This document shows positions 1 through 48,459 of a stretch of 64,000 nt of DNA, piece by piece. Position numbers and translations under genes: made by a program. Position 1 is the stretch's first letter; each line of letters begins with the position of its first letter. The notes under the pieces are model-generated. The model was not told the DNA's origin, made no database searches, and saw only the letters and a program-made list of their open reading frames with translations. Source of the stretch: Rhodopila globiformis (GTDB taxonomy: Bacteria; Pseudomonadota; Alphaproteobacteria; Acetobacterales; Acetobacteraceae); assembly GCF_002937115.1 (NCBI RefSeq), contig NZ_NHRY01000277.1, positions 1-64,000 on the forward strand, in the 5' to 3' direction.

Positions 1-83
1 TCGAGGCCTTCATCGCCTACTTCAACCGCACCCTCGCCAAGCCGTTCAAGTGGACCATGACCGGCAAGCCGCTCGCTGCGTGA
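1..83 (+). CDS. IS630-family transposase, C-terminal tail (partial)
   Basis: The reading frame entering the window from the left (codons from position 3) ends at the TGA at 81-83. It encodes a tail with FIAYFNRTLAKPFKW followed by TGKPLAA. That aromatic/basic ending is typical of the C-terminus of IS630/Tc1-mariner-like transposases with a DDE catalytic domain, which lies upstream of the window. Only about 26 residues are visible, so intactness and the exact IS cannot be judged, and I could not mark an inverted terminal repeat with confidence. A palindromic repeat begins about 44 bp after the stop. Confidence 0.6.
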   Translation, partial: EAFIAYFNRTLAKPFKWTMTGKPLAA

Positions 84-126
84 GCGGCCGTCGAAATGGG
101 GTTCGTTCTTCCGGCGAGGTGTACTA

Positions 127-228
127 GAGCGTTTTCAGCCTGACTGGAAACGCTCCAGCTCATAATTTCACGAGCAATTTCATCGGCCTGAAATCGCTCC
201 GCGATTTCCAGTCAGGCCGATATTGCTC
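127..228. repeat. Double-hairpin dispersed repeat, copy 1
   Basis: This 102-bp unit begins with GAGCG and ends with TTGCTC. It contains one strong hairpin (arms at about 172-190 and 210-228) and a second weaker palindrome at 127-156. A second copy lies at 58585-58685 in the opposite orientation and differs at only a handful of positions. This copy sits between the transposase tail and the 3' end of corA. No coding function is supported. Confidence 0.8.
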
Positions 229-248
229 TATCCTGTTCCAGCCGGGCT

Positions 249-1232
249 TCAGATCCATTTCCGCCAGCGGAACAGCACCAGCGGGATCAGCGTGGTGAGG
301 ATGATCAGCCCCCATCCCCAGGCATAGCCGTAGGCCCAGTCCAGCTCCGGCATCGACTTGAAGTTCATGCCGTAGACGCCGGCGATCAGCACCGGCGGAA
401 TGCCGACCACCGAGGCGACCGCCATGACTTTCATCACGTTGTTCTGGGCGATGTTGATGAAGCCCAGCGTCGCATCCAGCAGGAACTGCAGCTTCTCGTT
501 CAGATGGGTATCGAAGTCGCTGACCGACACGATGTCCTGCCGCAGCGTCTTCAGCCGCGGCGTCAGCTCCTTGGGCAGCCAGTCCCTGATCATCGCCAGC
601 ACATAGGGCACGATCCGGGCAGCGCCGACCTGGGTTTCGCGCACGTGGGAAATCATGTCGCCGATGCGGCCGAGCTCGCCCAGGGTCCGCCGCAGCATGG
701 CGTCCTCGTTCTTGCGGCCGCTGACCGGTCGCGTGCCCATGCCGAAGACGGCGTGGGAGATGGTGTCGAGCTCGCCGCGGACCTGTTCCAGCACGTCGGC
801 CTGGCGGTCGACGATCGCTTCCATCAGGCCAACGAAGATATGGGCGCTGGCGGTGTGATGGTTCGGGCCGCGCGAGGGGTGCAAGGCGTAGGCGTCGATG
901 ATGCGGCTTTCGGCGAAGCGGACGGTGATCAGTCGCTGCGGGGCCAGGATGGACCCGACCGACACACTGCGCGGCCTGTCGCCGCTGACGCTGACCAGGG
1001 GCATGCTGAGATACAGCACGCCGTCCCGCATCGCCAGGCGGCTGGAGGTTTCGATCTCGCTGATATCGGCCTCGGTGGGAATTCGCAGGCCGGTCGCCTG
1101 CTCCACGCGGGCGATGATGTCGGGTGTGGCGGAGACCAGGTCGATCCAGACCGCGTCGCGCAGCCCGTCGGGCGAAACGGCATCCGGCGCGCGATGCAAC
1201 TGGTCGTCGGTGCACAGGAATACGTTCAGCAT
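249..1232 (-). CDS. corA: CorA family magnesium/cobalt transporter
   Basis: A 327-residue protein of normal CorA length. It has a soluble acidic/helical N-terminal domain (about residues 1-260) followed by two C-terminal membrane segments (about 265-285 and 304-322). The hallmark loop motif YGMNF at about 287-291 joins the two helices and forms the mouth of the pentameric Mg2+ channel in this family. The extreme C-terminus is short and basic (RWRKWI), as expected on the cytoplasmic side. The start is supported by a GGAGG-like ribosome site upstream of ATG 1232. It is the last gene on this strand after ilvC, and a terminator-like hairpin separates the two, so it is probably transcribed alone. 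Co2+ or Ni2+ may also be carried. Confidence 0.9.
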   Translation of the reverse strand: MLNVFLCTDDQLHRAPDAVSPDGLRDAVWIDLVSATPDIIARVEQATGLRIPTEADISEIETSSRLAMRDGVLYLSMPLVSVSGDRPRSVSVGSILAPQRLITVRFAESRIIDAYALHPSRGPNHHTASAHIFVGLMEAIVDRQADVLEQVRGELDTISHAVFGMGTRPVSGRKNEDAMLRRTLGELGRIGDMISHVRETQVGAARIVPYVLAMIRDWLPKELTPRLKTLRQDIVSVSDFDTHLNEKLQFLLDATLGFINIAQNNVMKVMAVASVVGIPPVLIAGVYGMNFKSMPELDWAYGYAWGWGLIILTTLIPLVLFRWRKWI

Positions 1233-1297
1233 CGCAAATCATCCTCCGGCTGGCGCGCGGCAACCGGAGATTCACGAATTCCGGGTGAAAAGGCCAT

Positions 1298-1320
1298 CCC
1301 CGGCCGGATGAGGGCCGGGG
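1298..1320 (-). terminator. Candidate intrinsic terminator after ilvC
   Basis: An 8-bp GC-rich stem (CCCCGGCC, 1298-1305, with GGCCGGGG, 1313-1320) with a 7-nt loop lies just beyond the ilvC stop. Read on the minus strand it is followed within a few bases by CCTTTT. The T-run is short, so efficiency is uncertain, but it sits exactly where the ilv transcription unit should end before corA. Confidence 0.5.
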
Positions 1321-1332
1321 GCGGCGCGTTAC

Positions 1333-2391
<1,059 letters not shown>

Positions 2392-2412
2392 TTATGACCG
2401 AAGCCGCGCGGT

Positions 2413-3108
2413 TTATCCAGCCGGCGTTTGTCCGGGCTGCATTGCAGGTGCCGGAGTGTCCGCCGCGGCGGCGATCAGGCGGCGCAGGCCGTCGCGCAGC
2501 TTGCCGAAGCTTGGAGACCGGTTGATATCCGGATTCATCAGCGGGCCGATGCGGTTGGCCCATTCGTGCTTCAGATCGCCAGGCCGGCGGCCTCCAGGTT
2601 TGCGAACGGCGGCCAGTCCGCCCGGGTGGAGCGCATCGGCGAGCATCTCCCAGGTGCCGCAGACCGCATCCTGTTCGTAGCGCTTGAGAACGGCCTTTTT
2701 GGCTCTCGGGTAGGCGGCCTGCAAAGCTTCAGGGTCCCCGAAATACCAGGCTTCGGTTTCCTCGATAGCCAGCCGGAACAGGGTCTTCGCGTCGGCACCG
2801 CGGGATGCGGCAACAGCACGCAGCTCTGCCAGGAAGGTGGCGCAGTCGCGATCGTCGGCGTCCAGCACAACGACCACTGCGTCGATCGACGCCGTTTTGG
2901 CGTGGGCGCGCAACATACCCGGAAGCTTGTTCAGCAGGGTACGCTTGGCCGGGTCACCATCTTTCATGCCTCGGGGAATGTGGCCGACGCAACGGCAGTC
3001 GGTGATCTGCCAGGTGTGAGGTTCGCCATTCCCTCCGATGAGCTTCGGCAGCAGATGTTCCAGCAGCGCCTTGCCGGAGCTGTCCTCGGTGATAACCTCG
3101 ATGTGCAT
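2413..3108 (-). CDS. DUF4276-like TOPRIM-fold protein, partner of the ATPase
   Basis: About 231 residues from the ATG at 3108, which lies 2 bp beyond the upstream ATPase stop; a longer in-frame start at 3141 would overlap the ATPase. The N-terminus ITEDSSGKALLEHLLPKL has the glutamate (E8) and helix typical of TOPRIM-type proteins. VVVVLDADDRDC at about 79-89 supplies the acidic DxD motif, and the later EETEAWYFGD (116-125) matches a conserved DUF4276/DUF3226 block. These acidic residues suggest metal-dependent nuclease-like chemistry; no activity is proven. The near-fused arrangement with an AAA/ABC-type ATPase resembles a split OLD-family pair, so an antiphage or DNA-maintenance role is inferred. 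The cassette lies inside the ilv gene run. Confidence 0.75.
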   Translation of the reverse strand: MHIEVITEDSSGKALLEHLLPKLIGGNGEPHTWQITDCRCVGHIPRGMKDGDPAKRTLLNKLPGMLRAHAKTASIDAVVVVLDADDRDCATFLAELRAVAASRGADAKTLFRLAIEETEAWYFGDPEALQAAYPRAKKAVLKRYEQDAVCGTWEMLADALHPGGLAAVRKPGGRRPGDLKHEWANRIGPLMNPDINRSPSFGKLRDGLRRLIAAAADTPAPAMQPGQTPAG

Positions 3109-3110
3109 CG

Positions 3111-4328
3111 CTATCTCGGATCGAGGTAATCGCTGAACCAAAGCCCGCCCAGCGGCAGGCCCTCGGCGACCATGTTGCGAACGAGTTCGCTGTCCGAGGC
3201 GCGGCGGATCGTGGAGAATCCGTCGGCGCCCTTCTCCAGGATCCAGACTTCCTCGGGCGACAAGGCGTCTACGAAGTATGGCTGGTGCGTGGTGACGATG
3301 ATCTGCGGAGCATTCTCGGCGCCCGTGGCGTGCGCCCGGAATTCCTGCGCAAGGGTTTCCAGCAGCTTTGGATACAGGCCGTTCTCGGGTTCCTCAATGC
3401 AGATCAGCGGCGGTGGCTCGGGATCTTCCAGCAGCAGCATGTAGGCGAACAGCTTCAGGGTGCCGTCGGACATTTGTTGCGCGAAGAACGGATCGACGAA
3501 TCCTCGGTCGTTGAAGCGCAACAGAACGCGATTGTCCTCGGTAACCACCGATGCGATCTTTTCGATCCCGGGAATGCGGTTTGCGATACGGCGCAGAACC
3601 GACTGGAAGCGCGCCTTGTTGTCGCGTTCCATGAACTGGACCACGTTCCCGATGTTGTCGCCGCGCATATTCAGGTGGCGTTGCGGTCCAGCGACAGGCA
3701 GGCCGCGCGCGGCATCCGGCGTGAAGTAGGAAAGATACCAACCTTTCAGAAAGGCGCGAAAGCGGGCGATGTGTGGATGGTCGCGCAGAGCGCCGAGAGT
3801 CGCGACACCGAGCTGGCGCGTGTCGGTAAGTTGGACCGTGAGTAATCTGGCTTCCAGTCCGGACGGGTTGAACCCCGGCAAAACCACACCCTCGCCGCGA
3901 ATTAGCCGCATGAGAGGGAGATACTCCTTACCGTCCTCTGCCAATCCTGGCTGCCAGAAAACCTCGGACTCCACGAAGGGACGGCCTGTTGAGTCGATAT
4001 CAATTGCGAGGTTATAGGAAATCGGCCGCGCGCCGGCGGCTTCCCGATAGCAAACCTCAAAGCGGATCGGCTCCTGCACGCCCTGAGACCGCATGCGTTC
4101 GAAACCGCCACGCTGCTCTTTGTCGCAGGCAGCCTCGACCCCAATCGTCAGGCAATCGGCGAGAAAGCCGAACGCATCGAACAGCGTGCTCTTTCCCGAT
4201 CCATTCTTCCCGATAACAGCGGTCAAAGGCGACAGAGGATCGCCTTCGCCTGCGGGCAGGAGGCGGCCAAGCGTGACGTCCCGAAGCGAGCGGTAGTTCT
4301 GAACCCGGAAACCCTCGATCAGCGCCAC
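3111..4328 (-). CDS. AAA/ABC-type ATPase of OLD-like family
   Basis: A 405-residue ATPase. It begins with a conserved FRVQNYRSLRDV strand and carries Walker A GKNGSGKST at 40-48. A signature-like QQMSDGTLKLFAY lies at about 284-296, Walker B ICIEEPENGLYP at about 309-320, and an H-loop TTHQP at about 346-350. This is the AAA_15/AAA_21 layout seen in RecF/SMC-like ATPases of OLD, Gabija and retron or Septu-type systems. It has no fused TOPRIM domain; the next gene, 2 bp away, appears to supply one. It starts 25 bp after the ilvN stop and is clearly in the same transcription unit. ATP-dependent DNA sensing with the TOPRIM partner is an inference. Confidence 0.85.
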   Translation of the reverse strand: MALIEGFRVQNYRSLRDVTLGRLLPAGEGDPLSPLTAVIGKNGSGKSTLFDAFGFLADCLTIGVEAACDKEQRGGFERMRSQGVQEPIRFEVCYREAAGARPISYNLAIDIDSTGRPFVESEVFWQPGLAEDGKEYLPLMRLIRGEGVVLPGFNPSGLEARLLTVQLTDTRQLGVATLGALRDHPHIARFRAFLKGWYLSYFTPDAARGLPVAGPQRHLNMRGDNIGNVVQFMERDNKARFQSVLRRIANRIPGIEKIASVVTEDNRVLLRFNDRGFVDPFFAQQMSDGTLKLFAYMLLLEDPEPPPLICIEEPENGLYPKLLETLAQEFRAHATGAENAPQIIVTTHQPYFVDALSPEEVWILEKGADGFSTIRRASDSELVRNMVAEGLPLGGLWFSDYLDPR

Positions 4329-4353
4329 GCCCGCTCCTTTCCTCCAGCCCGTC

Positions 4354-4896
4354 CTAGCGGCCGAGTGACGGGGAAGCCTGTATCACCCGCGTGCCGCGGG
4401 CCAGCGCCGCGATGCCGCTGCGCGACACTTCCGACAGGCCGAGATCACGCATCAGCTCGATGAACGCGTCGATCTTGTCGGTAGCGCCGGTCAGCTCGAA
4501 CACGTAGCTGCCCAGCGTGGTGTCCACCACCCGGGCGCGGAAACTGTCGGCGATGCGCATCGCCTCGACCCGCTGCTCGCCGGTGCCGACGACCTTCACC
4601 AGGGCCAGCTCCCGCGCCACGTGCGGGCCTTCCATGGTCAGGTCCGACACGCAGTGCACCGGCACCAGGCGGTCGAGCTGCGCCTTGATCTGCTCGATCA
4701 CCATGGACGTGCCGGACGTCACGATGTTGATGCGGCTGTGCCGCCCCGCGGCATCCACCGGGGCCACGGTCAGGCTGTCGATGTTGTAGCCACGGCCGGA
4801 GAACAGGCCGATGACCCGCGCCAGGACGCCGGATTCATTGTCCACCAGGACCGAGATGGTCGCGCTGCGTTGGGTCGTGTCGGTGAGGCTGGGCAT
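4354..4896 (-). CDS. ilvN: Acetolactate synthase small (regulatory) subunit
   Basis: About 180 residues from the ATG at 4896 (MPSLTDTTQRSATISVLV). A longer frame to 4959 adds a low-complexity stretch that is not conserved in the family. The N-terminal ACT domain (ISVLVDNESGVLARVIGLFS) binds valine for feedback control. The rest is the C-terminal domain that activates the catalytic subunit (LVKVVGTGEQRVEAM onward). It follows ilvB by about 90 bp and precedes the ATPase cassette by 25 bp. The pair forms the enzyme for the first common step of branched-chain amino-acid synthesis. Confidence 0.95.
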   Translation of the reverse strand: MPSLTDTTQRSATISVLVDNESGVLARVIGLFSGRGYNIDSLTVAPVDAAGRHSRINIVTSGTSMVIEQIKAQLDRLVPVHCVSDLTMEGPHVARELALVKVVGTGEQRVEAMRIADSFRARVVDTTLGSYVFELTGATDKIDAFIELMRDLGLSEVSRSGIAALARGTRVIQASPSLGR

Positions 4897-4987
4897 GGGA
4901 AGAACCGGAACAGCAAGAGAAAACGGGAATGCCGGGCGCGCGGGGTCATGCCCCGCCACGCCCGGTGGTGCAAGCGATAAGGTGCGA

Positions 4988-6766
4988 TCAGACCAGGACC
5001 ATGCCCGCGTCGGTCACGCCGGCGCCGGACGGCTCATGGTCCGGACCCAGCAGCATCTCGTTGTGCGCGGCGCCGCTGGGGATCATCGGGAAGCAGTTCT
5101 CCGCCTGATCCACGGCAATGTCGGCGATGACCGCGGTCGGGCAGTCGAGCATGGCATTGATCACGCCATCCAGTTCATCCACCGAGGTCGCCCGCATGCC
5201 GGTGGCATGGAACGACTCCGCCAGCTTGATGAAATCCGGCAGCGCGTTGGAGTAGGTCTCGGAATACCGGCTGCCATGCAGCAATTCCTGCCACTGCCGC
5301 ACCATGCCCATGTACTGGTTGTTCAGGATGAACACCTTCACCGGCAGGCGGTACTGCGCCAGCGTGCCCATCTCCTGGATGTTCATCAGGATGGATGCCT
5401 CGCCGGCGATGTCGATTACCAGCGCGTCGGGATGCGCCAGTTGCACGCCCATCGCCGCCGGCAGGCCATAGCCCATGGTGCCCAGGCCGCCGGAGGTCAT
5501 CCAGCGGTTCGGCTTCTCGAAGCCGAAGTGCTGCGCCGCCCACATCTGGTGCTGGCCGACCTCGGTGGTGATGAAGGTCTCCTTGCCGCGGGCCTTGGTG
5601 ATCTCATACAGGCGCTTGATCGCGTATTGCGGCTTGATGATGCCGCCGGGCCGCATGTCCTGGTTGAACTTCAGGCTGTCCTTGCCCCGCCAGACATCGA
5701 TCTGCCGCCACCACGTCGTCAGCGCCGCCTTGTCCGCCGGGGCATCGCTCGCCTGCCACGCCGCCAGCAGCGCGTTCAGCGCCTTGCCGGCATCCGCGAC
5801 GATCGGCACGTCCACCGGGACGTTCTTGTTGATCGAGGAGCCGTCGATGTCGATGTGGATCTTCTTCGAGCCCTGGCTGAACGCATTCAGCCGCCCAGTG
5901 ACGCGGTCGTCAAACCGCGCGCCGACGGCCAGCATGACGTCGCAGCCATGCATCGCCAGGTTGGCCTCATACGTCCCATGCATGCCCAGCATGCCGAGGA
6001 ACTGCGGGTCGCTGGCCGGGAAGGTGCCCAGCCCCATCAGCGTGTTGGTGATCGGGAAGCCGGTGGCGCGGGCGAACGCGGCCAGCGCCTCCGACGCCTC
6101 CGGCCCGGCGTTCACCACGCCGCCGCCGGCGTAGATGATCGGCCGCTTCGCCTGCTTCAGCATCGCCACCGCCTGGGCGATTGCGCCGGCATCCGGCTCG
6201 GTACGCGGACGGTAGCTGACGTGCTGCACCGTCGGCTCGGTGTACGGCGCCTTGTTGATCACGATGTCCTTCGGCAGGTCGATCACCACCGGGCCGGGAC
6301 GGCCGTGGCTGGCGACGTAGAACGCCTCGTGGACGATGCGCGCCAGGTCTTCCGAGCGCTTGACTAGGTAGTTGTGCTTGGTCGCCGGCCGGGTGATGCC
6401 GGTGGTGTCGGCCTCCTGGAACGCGTCGTTGCCGATGAGGTGCGTCGGCACCTGGCCGGTCAGGCAGACCAGCGGGACGCTGTCCATCAGCGCGTCGAGC
6501 AACCCGGTCACCGCATTGGTGGCGCCGGGGCCGGAGGTCACCAGCACGCAGCCGACGCGGCCGGTGGAGCGGGCATAGCCCTCGGCGGCATGCACCGCCG
6601 CCTGCTCATGCCGGACCAGGATGTGGCGGATGGCGTTCTGCTGGAACAGCGCGTCATAGATCGGGAGTACGGCCCCGCCGGGATAGCCGAAAATAACCTC
6701 TACGCCCTGGTCCTTGAGTGCGCGTAGAAGGATTTCTGCTCCCGTTTGAGTCCATTCCGCCGCCAT
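4988..6766 (-). CDS. ilvB: Acetolactate synthase large (catalytic) subunit
   Basis: A 592-residue thiamine-diphosphate enzyme condensing pyruvate with pyruvate or 2-ketobutyrate. The N-terminal PYR domain contains GYPGGAVLPIYD and the catalytic glutamate in VRHEQAAVHAAEGYA. A central FAD-binding domain follows, then the C-terminal PP domain with the TPP/Mg2+ site AGEASILMNIQEMGT and the Asn pair in FILNNQYMGM. The GEA form of the TPP motif is a normal variant in proteobacterial enzymes. The gene is 55 bp downstream of miaA on the same strand. I saw no leader peptide or attenuator in that gap. Confidence 0.96.
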   Translation of the reverse strand: MAAEWTQTGAEILLRALKDQGVEVIFGYPGGAVLPIYDALFQQNAIRHILVRHEQAAVHAAEGYARSTGRVGCVLVTSGPGATNAVTGLLDALMDSVPLVCLTGQVPTHLIGNDAFQEADTTGITRPATKHNYLVKRSEDLARIVHEAFYVASHGRPGPVVIDLPKDIVINKAPYTEPTVQHVSYRPRTEPDAGAIAQAVAMLKQAKRPIIYAGGGVVNAGPEASEALAAFARATGFPITNTLMGLGTFPASDPQFLGMLGMHGTYEANLAMHGCDVMLAVGARFDDRVTGRLNAFSQGSKKIHIDIDGSSINKNVPVDVPIVADAGKALNALLAAWQASDAPADKAALTTWWRQIDVWRGKDSLKFNQDMRPGGIIKPQYAIKRLYEITKARGKETFITTEVGQHQMWAAQHFGFEKPNRWMTSGGLGTMGYGLPAAMGVQLAHPDALVIDIAGEASILMNIQEMGTLAQYRLPVKVFILNNQYMGMVRQWQELLHGSRYSETYSNALPDFIKLAESFHATGMRATSVDELDGVINAMLDCPTAVIADIAVDQAENCFPMIPSGAAHNEMLLGPDHEPSGAGVTDAGMVLV

Positions 6767-6821
6767 ACCTGGCTCCCGTTACTGAAAGAGGGCGGACGGT
6801 TATGCTGTCTGTACGTCCAGG

Positions 6822-7793
6822 TCAAGCCTCGTTTTCAATAAATGTCAACAAACTGGGGCGTTCTCTTTCCGAAAATTGCGCCAAATTGACAAATCGTGCA
6901 TTAATCTTGCTCGTGCGGGTCTGGGGTGCAAGCACGTGATGACGGAACCACGTTGCCTGGCGCTTGGTGTACTGGCCAGTGACCAGTTCGGTGCGGCGTC
7001 CGGCTTCCTGTAGCGACAATTCGCCGCGCAGATAGCCCGACAGTTCCGGCACGCCATGCGCCCGCATCGCCGGCAGCGCGGGATCGAGGCCAAGCGCCAG
7101 CAACGCCCGCACCTCATCCACCGCGCCCTGCCGGATCATGGCGTCGAACCGGGTGGCGATGGCGGCGCGCAGGGCATCGCGCGGCGGGTCGAGCAGGACG
7201 GCGGCGAACCGCCACGGCGCCGGCGGCGAACGCTCGGCCTGCCAGGCGGCGAGGCCCCGTCCCGTGCCGCGCCAGACCTCCCAGGCGCGGGCGATGCGCT
7301 GGCTGTCCTCGGGGTTCAAACGTGCAGCGGTCGCGGGATCGACCCTGGCGAGGCTGGCATGCAGCGCCGCGGGCCCCTGCTCCGCCAGCAGGCGCCGGGC
7401 CTCGGCACGGGCGTCGGGACCGGGATCGGGGATTTCGGCCAGCCCATCGGTCAACGCCGCGAAATACATCCCCGACCCGCCGGTCAGGATCGGCAGGCGA
7501 CCGGCCGCGCGGGCTTCCGCCATCGCCGCCAGGGCGGTTTCCCGCCACCAGGCGACGCTGCCGGCCTCGGCGGCCGGGCGAATGCCGTAGAGACGGTGCG
7601 GAACGAGAGCTTCTTCCTCTGGCGTCGGGCGGGCCGTCAGGACGCGCAGCTCGCTATACACCTGCATGGAATCGGTATTGATGATCGTCCCGCCCACAAG
7701 CTGCGCGATCGCCAGCGCCAGCGCGGATTTTCCGCTCGCCGTCGGGCCGGCGACGATCAGCGCCCTTGGCAGCCCCCGCGGCCGGTCAGCCAT
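6822..7793 (-). CDS. miaA: tRNA dimethylallyltransferase
   Basis: A 323-residue enzyme that adds a dimethylallyl group to N6 of A37 in tRNAs reading UNN codons. The P-loop GPTASGKSALA lies at 16-26 and the DSMQVYSEL motif at about 41-49, followed by the substrate-binding region (LTGGSGMYFAALTDGLAEIP). The C-terminal Q/R-rich segment QYTKRQATWFRHH is diagnostic for MiaA. It lies 13 bp downstream of a small ribbon-helix-helix-like gene and 55 bp upstream of ilvB, all on the minus strand. Confidence 0.95.
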   Translation of the reverse strand: MADRPRGLPRALIVAGPTASGKSALALAIAQLVGGTIINTDSMQVYSELRVLTARPTPEEEALVPHRLYGIRPAAEAGSVAWWRETALAAMAEARAAGRLPILTGGSGMYFAALTDGLAEIPDPGPDARAEARRLLAEQGPAALHASLARVDPATAARLNPEDSQRIARAWEVWRGTGRGLAAWQAERSPPAPWRFAAVLLDPPRDALRAAIATRFDAMIRQGAVDEVRALLALGLDPALPAMRAHGVPELSGYLRGELSLQEAGRRTELVTGQYTKRQATWFRHHVLAPQTRTSKINARFVNLAQFSERERPSLLTFIENEA

Positions 7794-48383: not shown

Positions 48384-48459
48384 TGGTGGAGCCGAGGGGA
48401 ATCGAACCCCTGACCTCCTGAATGCCATTCAGGCGCTCTCCCAACTGAGCTACGGCCCC
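48384..48459 (-). tRNA. tRNA-Ala (anticodon GGC)
   Basis: On the minus strand a 76-nt cloverleaf runs from GGGGCCG to CGGCTCC-A-CCA. The acceptor stem pairs 7/7 with one G-U. The D-arm has AGCTCAGTTGGGAGAGC, and the anticodon stem CCTGA/TCAGG encloses loop ATGGCAT. The T-arm has GGTTCGATTCC. The anticodon GGC reads GCC/GCU alanine codons. CCA is encoded. Confidence 0.97.

Follow-up and report, generated by a model that had tools for sequence, protein, structure and literature searches.

Between ilvN and ilvC, in the branched-chain amino acid operon of Rhodopila globiformis, sits a pair of genes that belongs to HEC-01, a candidate "embedded" system already named in PADLOC. We consider the pair to be probably a defense module seated within ilvBNC and moved in and out of the operon by recombination, for which an antiviral role is the candidate function. 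The system itself is known as a candidate, and the interesting part of the finding is the location of the pair and its turnover.

Genomes, Loci, and Searches

The window, by which we mean the whole 64,000-nucleotide stretch that was analyzed (positions 1 to 64,000 of contig NZ_NHRY01000277.1), carries the ilv operon region on its minus strand. Its own genome is denoted G000, other genomes of the genus are given G numbers, and individual loci are given L numbers. Gene A refers to the HEC-01A-type ATPase and gene B to the HEC-01B-type DUF4276 protein. The genus sample comprised 33 genomes, and the ilvN-ilvC site was treated as readable where both edges of the gap lay on one contig, which was the case in 30 of the 33; the site was unreadable in G016, G017, and G029, and no match to B was found in these three genomes. 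The class survey drew 385 genomes, own genome included. A survey of thiE loci found a match in 31 of the 33 genus genomes, and 30 loci were examined, that of the own genome being left out. Conservation was scored on alignments of 22 homologue rows for A and 23 for B; the structure models were likewise built from 22 and 23 rows, respectively, and the profile with which the PDB was searched for A from 25. Searches of the genes neighboring the relatives' pairs left out L058, L066, L068/L086, L082, and L090. For hhalign comparisons of B, the OLD set held 11 of 14 OLD-type loci (L105, L106, and L107 were left out as short or weak matches) and the DUF4435 set six of seven (L115 was left out).

Organization of the Locus

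On the minus strand the genes run in the order ilvB (4988..6766, the first ilv gene here), ilvN (4354..4896), A (3111..4328), B (2413..3108), and ilvC (1333..2352), flanked on one side by a CorA-like gene (249-1232) and on the other by an IPP transferase gene (6822-7793), both assigned by Pfam. The ilv names are supported by counterparts in the genus and by Pfam, with KARI_N and KARI_C in ilvC, ALS_ss_C and an AHAS ACT domain in ilvN, and three TPP_enzyme domains in ilvB. Gene A begins with GTG at 4328 and encodes 405 amino acids, and gene B begins with ATG at 3108 and encodes 231. The initial annotation had described two genes 2 bp apart between ilvN and ilvC, and the open reading frame coordinates bear this out: the stop of A is separated from the start of B by 2 bp (3109..3110), the ilvN stop from A by 25 bp, and the B stop from ilvC by 60 bp. 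The 2-bp gap recurs in the other eight intact copies of the genus and in L065, a relative from the Comamonadaceae, and it makes translational coupling of A and B likely. In eight further genomes of the genus neither open reading frame at this position is disrupted, which, together with the Pfam matches to both proteins, indicates that the pair is more than a chance arrangement. PADLOC models searched at 1e-5 matched none of the seven neighboring genes, so the window itself is no defense locus, and no methyltransferase was found among the seven.

The initial annotation had tied expression of the pair to amino acid synthesis through its position, which is a possibility: no Rfam leader at gathering score was found in the window and no promoter-like match in positions 1-7000. 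In the latter interval four terminator-like sites were found against 4.0 expected in shuffles. One of the terminator-like features, a hairpin followed by a T run and of uncertain function, lies between B and ilvC (2386..2408, minus strand). Its region folds no better than shuffles, its T run is kept only in G000, G006, G008, and G025, and, with site count and folding both at the level of shuffles, it was set aside as an argument. Just before ilvC (2353-2425, minus strand), seven genomes (G000, G006, G008, G010, G013, G025, and G032) share TGGAT and CATAA separated by 18 bases, a motif that is kept in G010 and G032 too, although it does not overlap the reading frame of B there. This could be a putative private promoter of ilvC, which, if real, would explain why gain and loss of the pair are tolerated. 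Farther away in the window, ARAGORN finds a single tRNA, a tRNA-Ala (GGC) at 48384-48459 on the minus strand, and no other Rfam family reaches its gathering score in the window.

Identity and Conservation of the Two Proteins

The profile search proposed with the initial annotation assigned A to Pfam AAA_21 (2.6e-38) and to the PADLOC model HEC-01A (PDLC04182; 1.3e-177, residues 1-403 of 405), and B to DUF4276 (2.2e-9), the sole Pfam family found in it, and to HEC-01B (PDLC04205; 6.6e-81, residues 1-209). The two genes are adjacent and co-oriented (2 bp apart on the same strand), lie in the order A then B, and encode proteins that match their models over almost their full length. The gene order had not been recognized as that of a named defense system; with these matches the notion of an unnamed new system is rejected. 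Ten proteins from five pairs were also run through PADLOC, and the best match of all ten was a HEC-01 model. Several relatives of the pair are, like it, embedded in other operons, while the window pair departs from HEC-01 in lying in ilvBNC and not in a defense locus (none of its seven neighbors matches PADLOC).

The name HEC stands for Hma-embedded candidate; several HECs, including HEC-06, are reported as active in assays, and HEC-01 is not named in that part of the source (PMC12988326), which cites a preprint on HECs (doi 10.1101/2024.01.29.577857). HEC-01 is listed as found in Desulfovibrio piger in a passage of PMC12724379. The literature searched yielded no experimental test of HEC-01, and a search for DUF4276 yielded no paper.

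Protein A belongs with the ABC-type ATPases of the OLD/PtuA/Rad50 kind, and its motifs are conserved. All of the motifs ascribed to it at the outset were found, with key residues invariant in 22/22 homologue rows: Walker A, GKNGSGKST, at residues 40-48 (4185..4211, minus strand; lysine invariant); the SDG signature within MSDGT (S287-G289; 3462..3470, minus strand; S287 and G289 invariant); the EE of Walker B within CIEEPEN (E312 and E313; 3390..3395, minus strand); and the H-loop histidine within TTHQP (H348; 3285..3287, minus strand). A search of the PDB with the profile of A placed TsOLD (6p74) at the top with 4.5e-12, followed by PtuA, retron ATPases, and AriA (9.2e-6), among 35 sequences. 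The model of A (pLDDT 87) gave 165 Foldseek matches at E ≤ 0.001, with PtuA, OLD (7.4e-12), and Rad50 first, and heads of Rad50 and SMC proteins turned up as relatives in the profile and the fold search alike.

In protein B, invariant acidic residues fall at two positions of interest. E8 (3085..3087, minus strand) directly follows the first strand of the model (residues 2-7), and D83 and D85 of a DxD motif (2854..2862, minus strand) stand at the end of the third (77-83), all three being invariant in 23/23 rows; a further motif, E116-E119 (2752..2763, minus strand), follows the fourth strand, with E116 and E117 invariant in 23/23 and E119 conserved in at least 90%. The model (pLDDT 82) has the order b1-a-b2-a-b3-a-b4. 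TOPRIM domains share this strand-helix order and are marked by a glutamate after b1 and a DxD after b3, both of which B has in conserved form. Searches for a homologous fold returned little: Foldseek of the B model had no hit at E ≤ 0.001 in either the PDB or BFVD (lumazine synthases came out best in the PDB), the better of two hits in the PDB profile search had an E value of 0.15, and no NCBIfam model matched at E up to 1. Alignment by hhalign with OLD-type TOPRIMs aligned the Glu motif within 40 columns at a probability of 1.3%, which is not significant, and with DUF4435 the probability was 0.5%. Since no significant TOPRIM match was obtained by fold or profile, we infer the TOPRIM-like nature of B from motif and topology. 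The reading of the locus as a two-gene combination of an ABC-type ATPase and a TOPRIM-like protein is supported; of the TOPRIM-type Glu and DADD motifs ascribed to B, the residues E8, D83, and D85 proved conserved in homologues, and the last aspartate of DADD, D86, did not.

Comparison With Known Systems

The pair had been read as an OLD/Gabija-type nuclease split in two, of which the kinship of A with OLD-type ATPases stands and membership in either group does not. With class 1 OLD proteins, as represented by TsOLD, the pair shares this kinship, by both profile and Foldseek, and a Glu and DxD in the partner protein. OLD proteins have both domains in one chain, however, whereas the window pair consists of two, and the OLD-like_TOPRIM profile (PF20469) had no match anywhere in the own genome. 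With Gabija (GajA/GajB) the pair shares the theme of an ATPase and a TOPRIM. GajA is one fused chain, and GajB is a helicase. PMC10822852 describes GajA as an OLD-type protein and GajB as an SF1 protein. The window locus has neither such a fusion nor a downstream GajB-type partner gene, ilvC coming after the pair, and membership in Gabija was rejected.

PARIS is alike in having separate genes for an ABC ATPase (AriA, which A resembles) and a TOPRIM-type effector (AriB), and unlike in the family of the effector, which is DUF4435 in AriB (PMC9122126) and DUF4276 in B. DUF4435 had no match in the own genome and DUF4276 was the only family found in B, which excludes membership. According to PMC12409363, AriB is kept in a hexamer of AriA until the latter senses phage proteins, and cuts tRNA once released; a review mentions a proposal, made for PARIS, to count ATPase and TOPRIM encoded by separate genes as a fourth class of OLD (PMC10568477). 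The resemblance of A and B to PARIS would be a likeness in working and not a membership. MADS was rejected as well: A scores 95.8 bits against the NCBIfam model of MAD3, a likeness that misses the curated cut-off of 420 bits, and the neighborhood is unlike that of MADS in that the seven neighboring genes examined include no methyltransferase.

Settings of Relatives and Other HEC-01 Pairs

The relative from the Comamonadaceae (L065; 68% identity in A, 58% in B) lies directly after ResIII, KilA-N, and N6_N4_Mtase genes, a type III-like restriction-modification (RM) arrangement, with no match to ilvN or ilvC within its 8.9 kb. Type I RM genes surround others: in L081 the order is HsdM, HsdS, pair, HsdR; in L087 the pair adjoins HsdR; and in L089 it follows HsdM and HsdS. 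On a Meiothermus plasmid (L085) the run is annotated as a DNA methyltransferase, DUF262, restriction subunit S, DUF4433, macro domain, AAA, DUF4276, and type I subunit R, such that the DUF4433 and macro-domain genes and a HEC-01-like pair are nested together within a type I RM run (L085:1-10644); we take the DUF4433 and macro-domain couple to be DarTG-like. Mobile settings are also represented. On a Rahnella plasmid (L083) the pair lies among phage genes of a prophage, between an antitermination gene and lysis genes, and L079 encodes the same B; in L080, likewise a prophage setting, it lies between phage GPA and portal/terminase genes; and on the conjugative plasmid of L084 it is flanked by genes for type IV secretion and by mobF. 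Some relatives adjoin metabolic genes, with the pair of L055 and L056 following thiE, and in five loci (L054, L055, L056, L057, and L088) no defense gene was found among the one to three neighbors searched in each.

The own genome holds a second HEC-01 pair (L054; G000:C272:84284-86103), beside a NIPSNAP gene, with about 40% identity to the window pair in A and about 36% in B. Downstream of thiE, a HEC-01 pair different from that of the window was found at three of the 30 genus loci (L120 in G005, L117 in G020, and L119 in G021, where the A gene runs off the contig). The other 27 had no match to A within 336-1530 bp downstream, including the locus of G018, despite 95% identity between its ThiE and the ThiE of G020.

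Distribution in the Genus and Class

The genus does not carry the pair as a fixed housekeeping element. Comparison of the ilvN-ilvC interval across relatives, suggested with the initial annotation, showed that it is far from universal: the 30 readable sites comprise nine intact pairs (G000, G001, G008, G009, G010, G013, G025, G027, and G032; A of 399-413 amino acids and B of 215-231), one out-of-frame remnant, and 20 sites without either gene, at which the gap between the ilvN and ilvC matches is at most 368 bp. The remnant, in G006, retains residues 1-147 of A followed in another frame by residues 48-231 of B, and its ilvC is of full length. All ten matches to B with at least 58% identity in the genus sit at the ilvN-ilvC site and none elsewhere in the 33 genomes, and in the class survey B was matched in eight of the 385 genomes drawn, own genome included. 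On an ilvBNC tree of the 30 genomes, the distribution requires at least six gains or losses; 33 of 1000 shuffles reached or beat this number, so presence is somewhat clustered by kinship. Apart from this, the ilvC of G005 (L050; G005:C112:74548-75824) was matched in two pieces with a gap and is either broken or misassembled.

Movement, Divergence, and Selection

A closely similar pair of operons, one with and one without the genes, is provided by G027 and G011, which are 95.5% identical over 3228 bp before the site and 97.7% identical over 1042 bp after it, with the pair only in G027. The gap in G011 consists of the ilvN stop and 22 bp identical to those that immediately precede ilvC in G027, and the extra segment of G027 is 2112 bp long. 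No direct or inverted repeat shared between its two ends is longer than 8 bases, a length that shuffled sequence reaches as well. It had been thought that the pair would be hard to lose without damaging ilvC, an expectation that is contradicted by this clean junction 22 bp before the gene and by G006, where the pair has decayed and ilvC is of full length.

The last 150 bp of ilvN differ between G011 and G027 by 13 mismatches, whereas the 13 preceding 150-bp windows have 0-4 apiece, a pattern that points to recombination ending inside ilvN. The signal is patchy, because divergence rises again far upstream (110 of 146 upstream mismatches lie within the first 900 bp), and the pattern may reflect either gain or loss. 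A search for a donor of the divergent ilvN end of G027 found none, the closest match to the last 60 bp being G011 itself, with 13 mismatches (the G008 row, being out of register, was excluded).

Between G008 and G025, protein identity is 98% in IlvB, 92% in IlvN, and 97% in IlvC, against 75% in A and 74% in B. Synonymous divergence follows suit, dS being 0.99 for A and 0.53 for B, compared with 0.28 (ilvB), 0.34 (ilvN), and 0.19 (ilvC). Across ten chosen comparisons within the genus, dS was always higher in A than in any of the three ilv genes, and dS of B exceeded that of the ilv genes in nine, narrowly in G000-G025 and G001-G009; the exception was G000-G008, with 0.46 in B against 0.54 in ilvN. 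These values are in keeping with older alleles having been exchanged at the site, above all in the case of A, with the reservation that codon bias in the ilv genes may partly lower their dS. In comparisons with finite dS, dN/dS of A and B was about 0.05-0.35, which indicates that both are under purifying selection and kept functional.

The 70 bp preceding ilvC were compared among seven carriers in 21 pairings, each against 300 shuffles. The six pairings among G000, G010, G013, and G032 beat all 300 (one was reached by a single shuffle), and we take at least these four to derive from one insertion, judging by their spacers. The spacers of G000, G010, and G013 are not alike with those of G001, G009, or G027, but the G032-G027 and G009-G027 spacers are alike (0/300 shuffles), and these cross-resemblances mean that there are no two clean spacer groups. 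Phylogenetically, the Comamonadaceae copy falls within a group of 100% support with G001, G009, G027, G032, and G013; support for the inner nodes is 46-55%, and the root is placed by distant outgroups, so that transfer may have run in either direction.

Discussion

A scheme modeled on AriA and AriB of PARIS suggests how the two proteins might work. Protein A would form an ATP-dependent complex that keeps B inactive and senses infection, and B would be a metal-dependent nuclease of TOPRIM type, set free upon infection, which would cut nucleic acid, either host tRNA or DNA, and thereby stop the infected cell. The ilv operon would supply a steady promoter and would not be a functional partner, and its genes would act as homology arms for exchange. 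Antiviral activity is the candidate function of the pair.

The same arrangement of two co-oriented genes 2 bp apart, with mobile settings among the relatives and a patchy distribution, would also suit a selfish module resembling a toxin-antitoxin system, in which B is a toxic nuclease and A an ATPase antitoxin and the pair is kept by addiction instead of protection from phages; AriA of PARIS is itself called an antitoxin by the depositors of 8v45. We consider this unlikely, though deserving of some weight, since absence of the pair is tolerated, empty sites being frequent and G006 retaining a full-length ilvC after the loss of the greater part of A and of the beginning of B, and since the repeated RM neighborhood points to defense. 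Toxin-antitoxin systems and abortive defense overlap, and in part the distinction is a difference of emphasis. The out-of-frame remnant of G006 speaks for a neutral passenger simply decaying at the site, but nine copies are intact and the dN/dS values speak for proteins kept by selection, which makes this reading very improbable.

The constancy of the position, with all ten genus copies co-oriented between ilvN and ilvC and none of at least 58% identity elsewhere in the 33 genomes, could be taken to mean that the pair belongs in the operon as a conserved factor assisting branched-chain amino acid synthesis, perhaps by regulating IlvC or IlvBN or by acting together with them. That 20 of the 30 readable sites lack it, that L065 follows RM-type genes away from any ilvN or ilvC match in its 8.9 kb, and that other relatives occupy prophage, plasmid, and RM loci renders this very improbable. 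We give just as little credence to a role in DNA repair or recombination outside defense, as a RecF/Rad50-like ATPase with a nuclease: the profile and fold searches do both place Rad50 and SMC heads near A, but the top rank goes to OLD in the former and to PtuA in the latter, and the sporadic presence and the RM, prophage, and plasmid settings are unlike those of core repair genes. A HEC-01 defense module exchanged at the ilv operon is the reading that we prefer.

More broadly, and tentatively, housekeeping biosynthetic loci of Rhodopila may serve as recurrent, scarless landing places for HEC-01-type pairs, at which a host promoter is borrowed, the flanks act as homology arms that swap alleles between species, and loss is as clean as gain. 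Two subfamilies would be involved, one between ilvN and ilvC (ten of 30 sites, one of them a remnant) and one at thiE (three of 30). Defense genes are usually sought in defense islands, prophages, and integration hotspots. The turnover of a candidate pair within a core amino acid operon suggests that immunity genes may be exchanged at small sites within essential operons, and that searches built around islands would miss pairs seated in this way. The operons of G011 and G027, closely similar and differing in the presence of the pair, offer a good natural comparison for the function of HEC-01.
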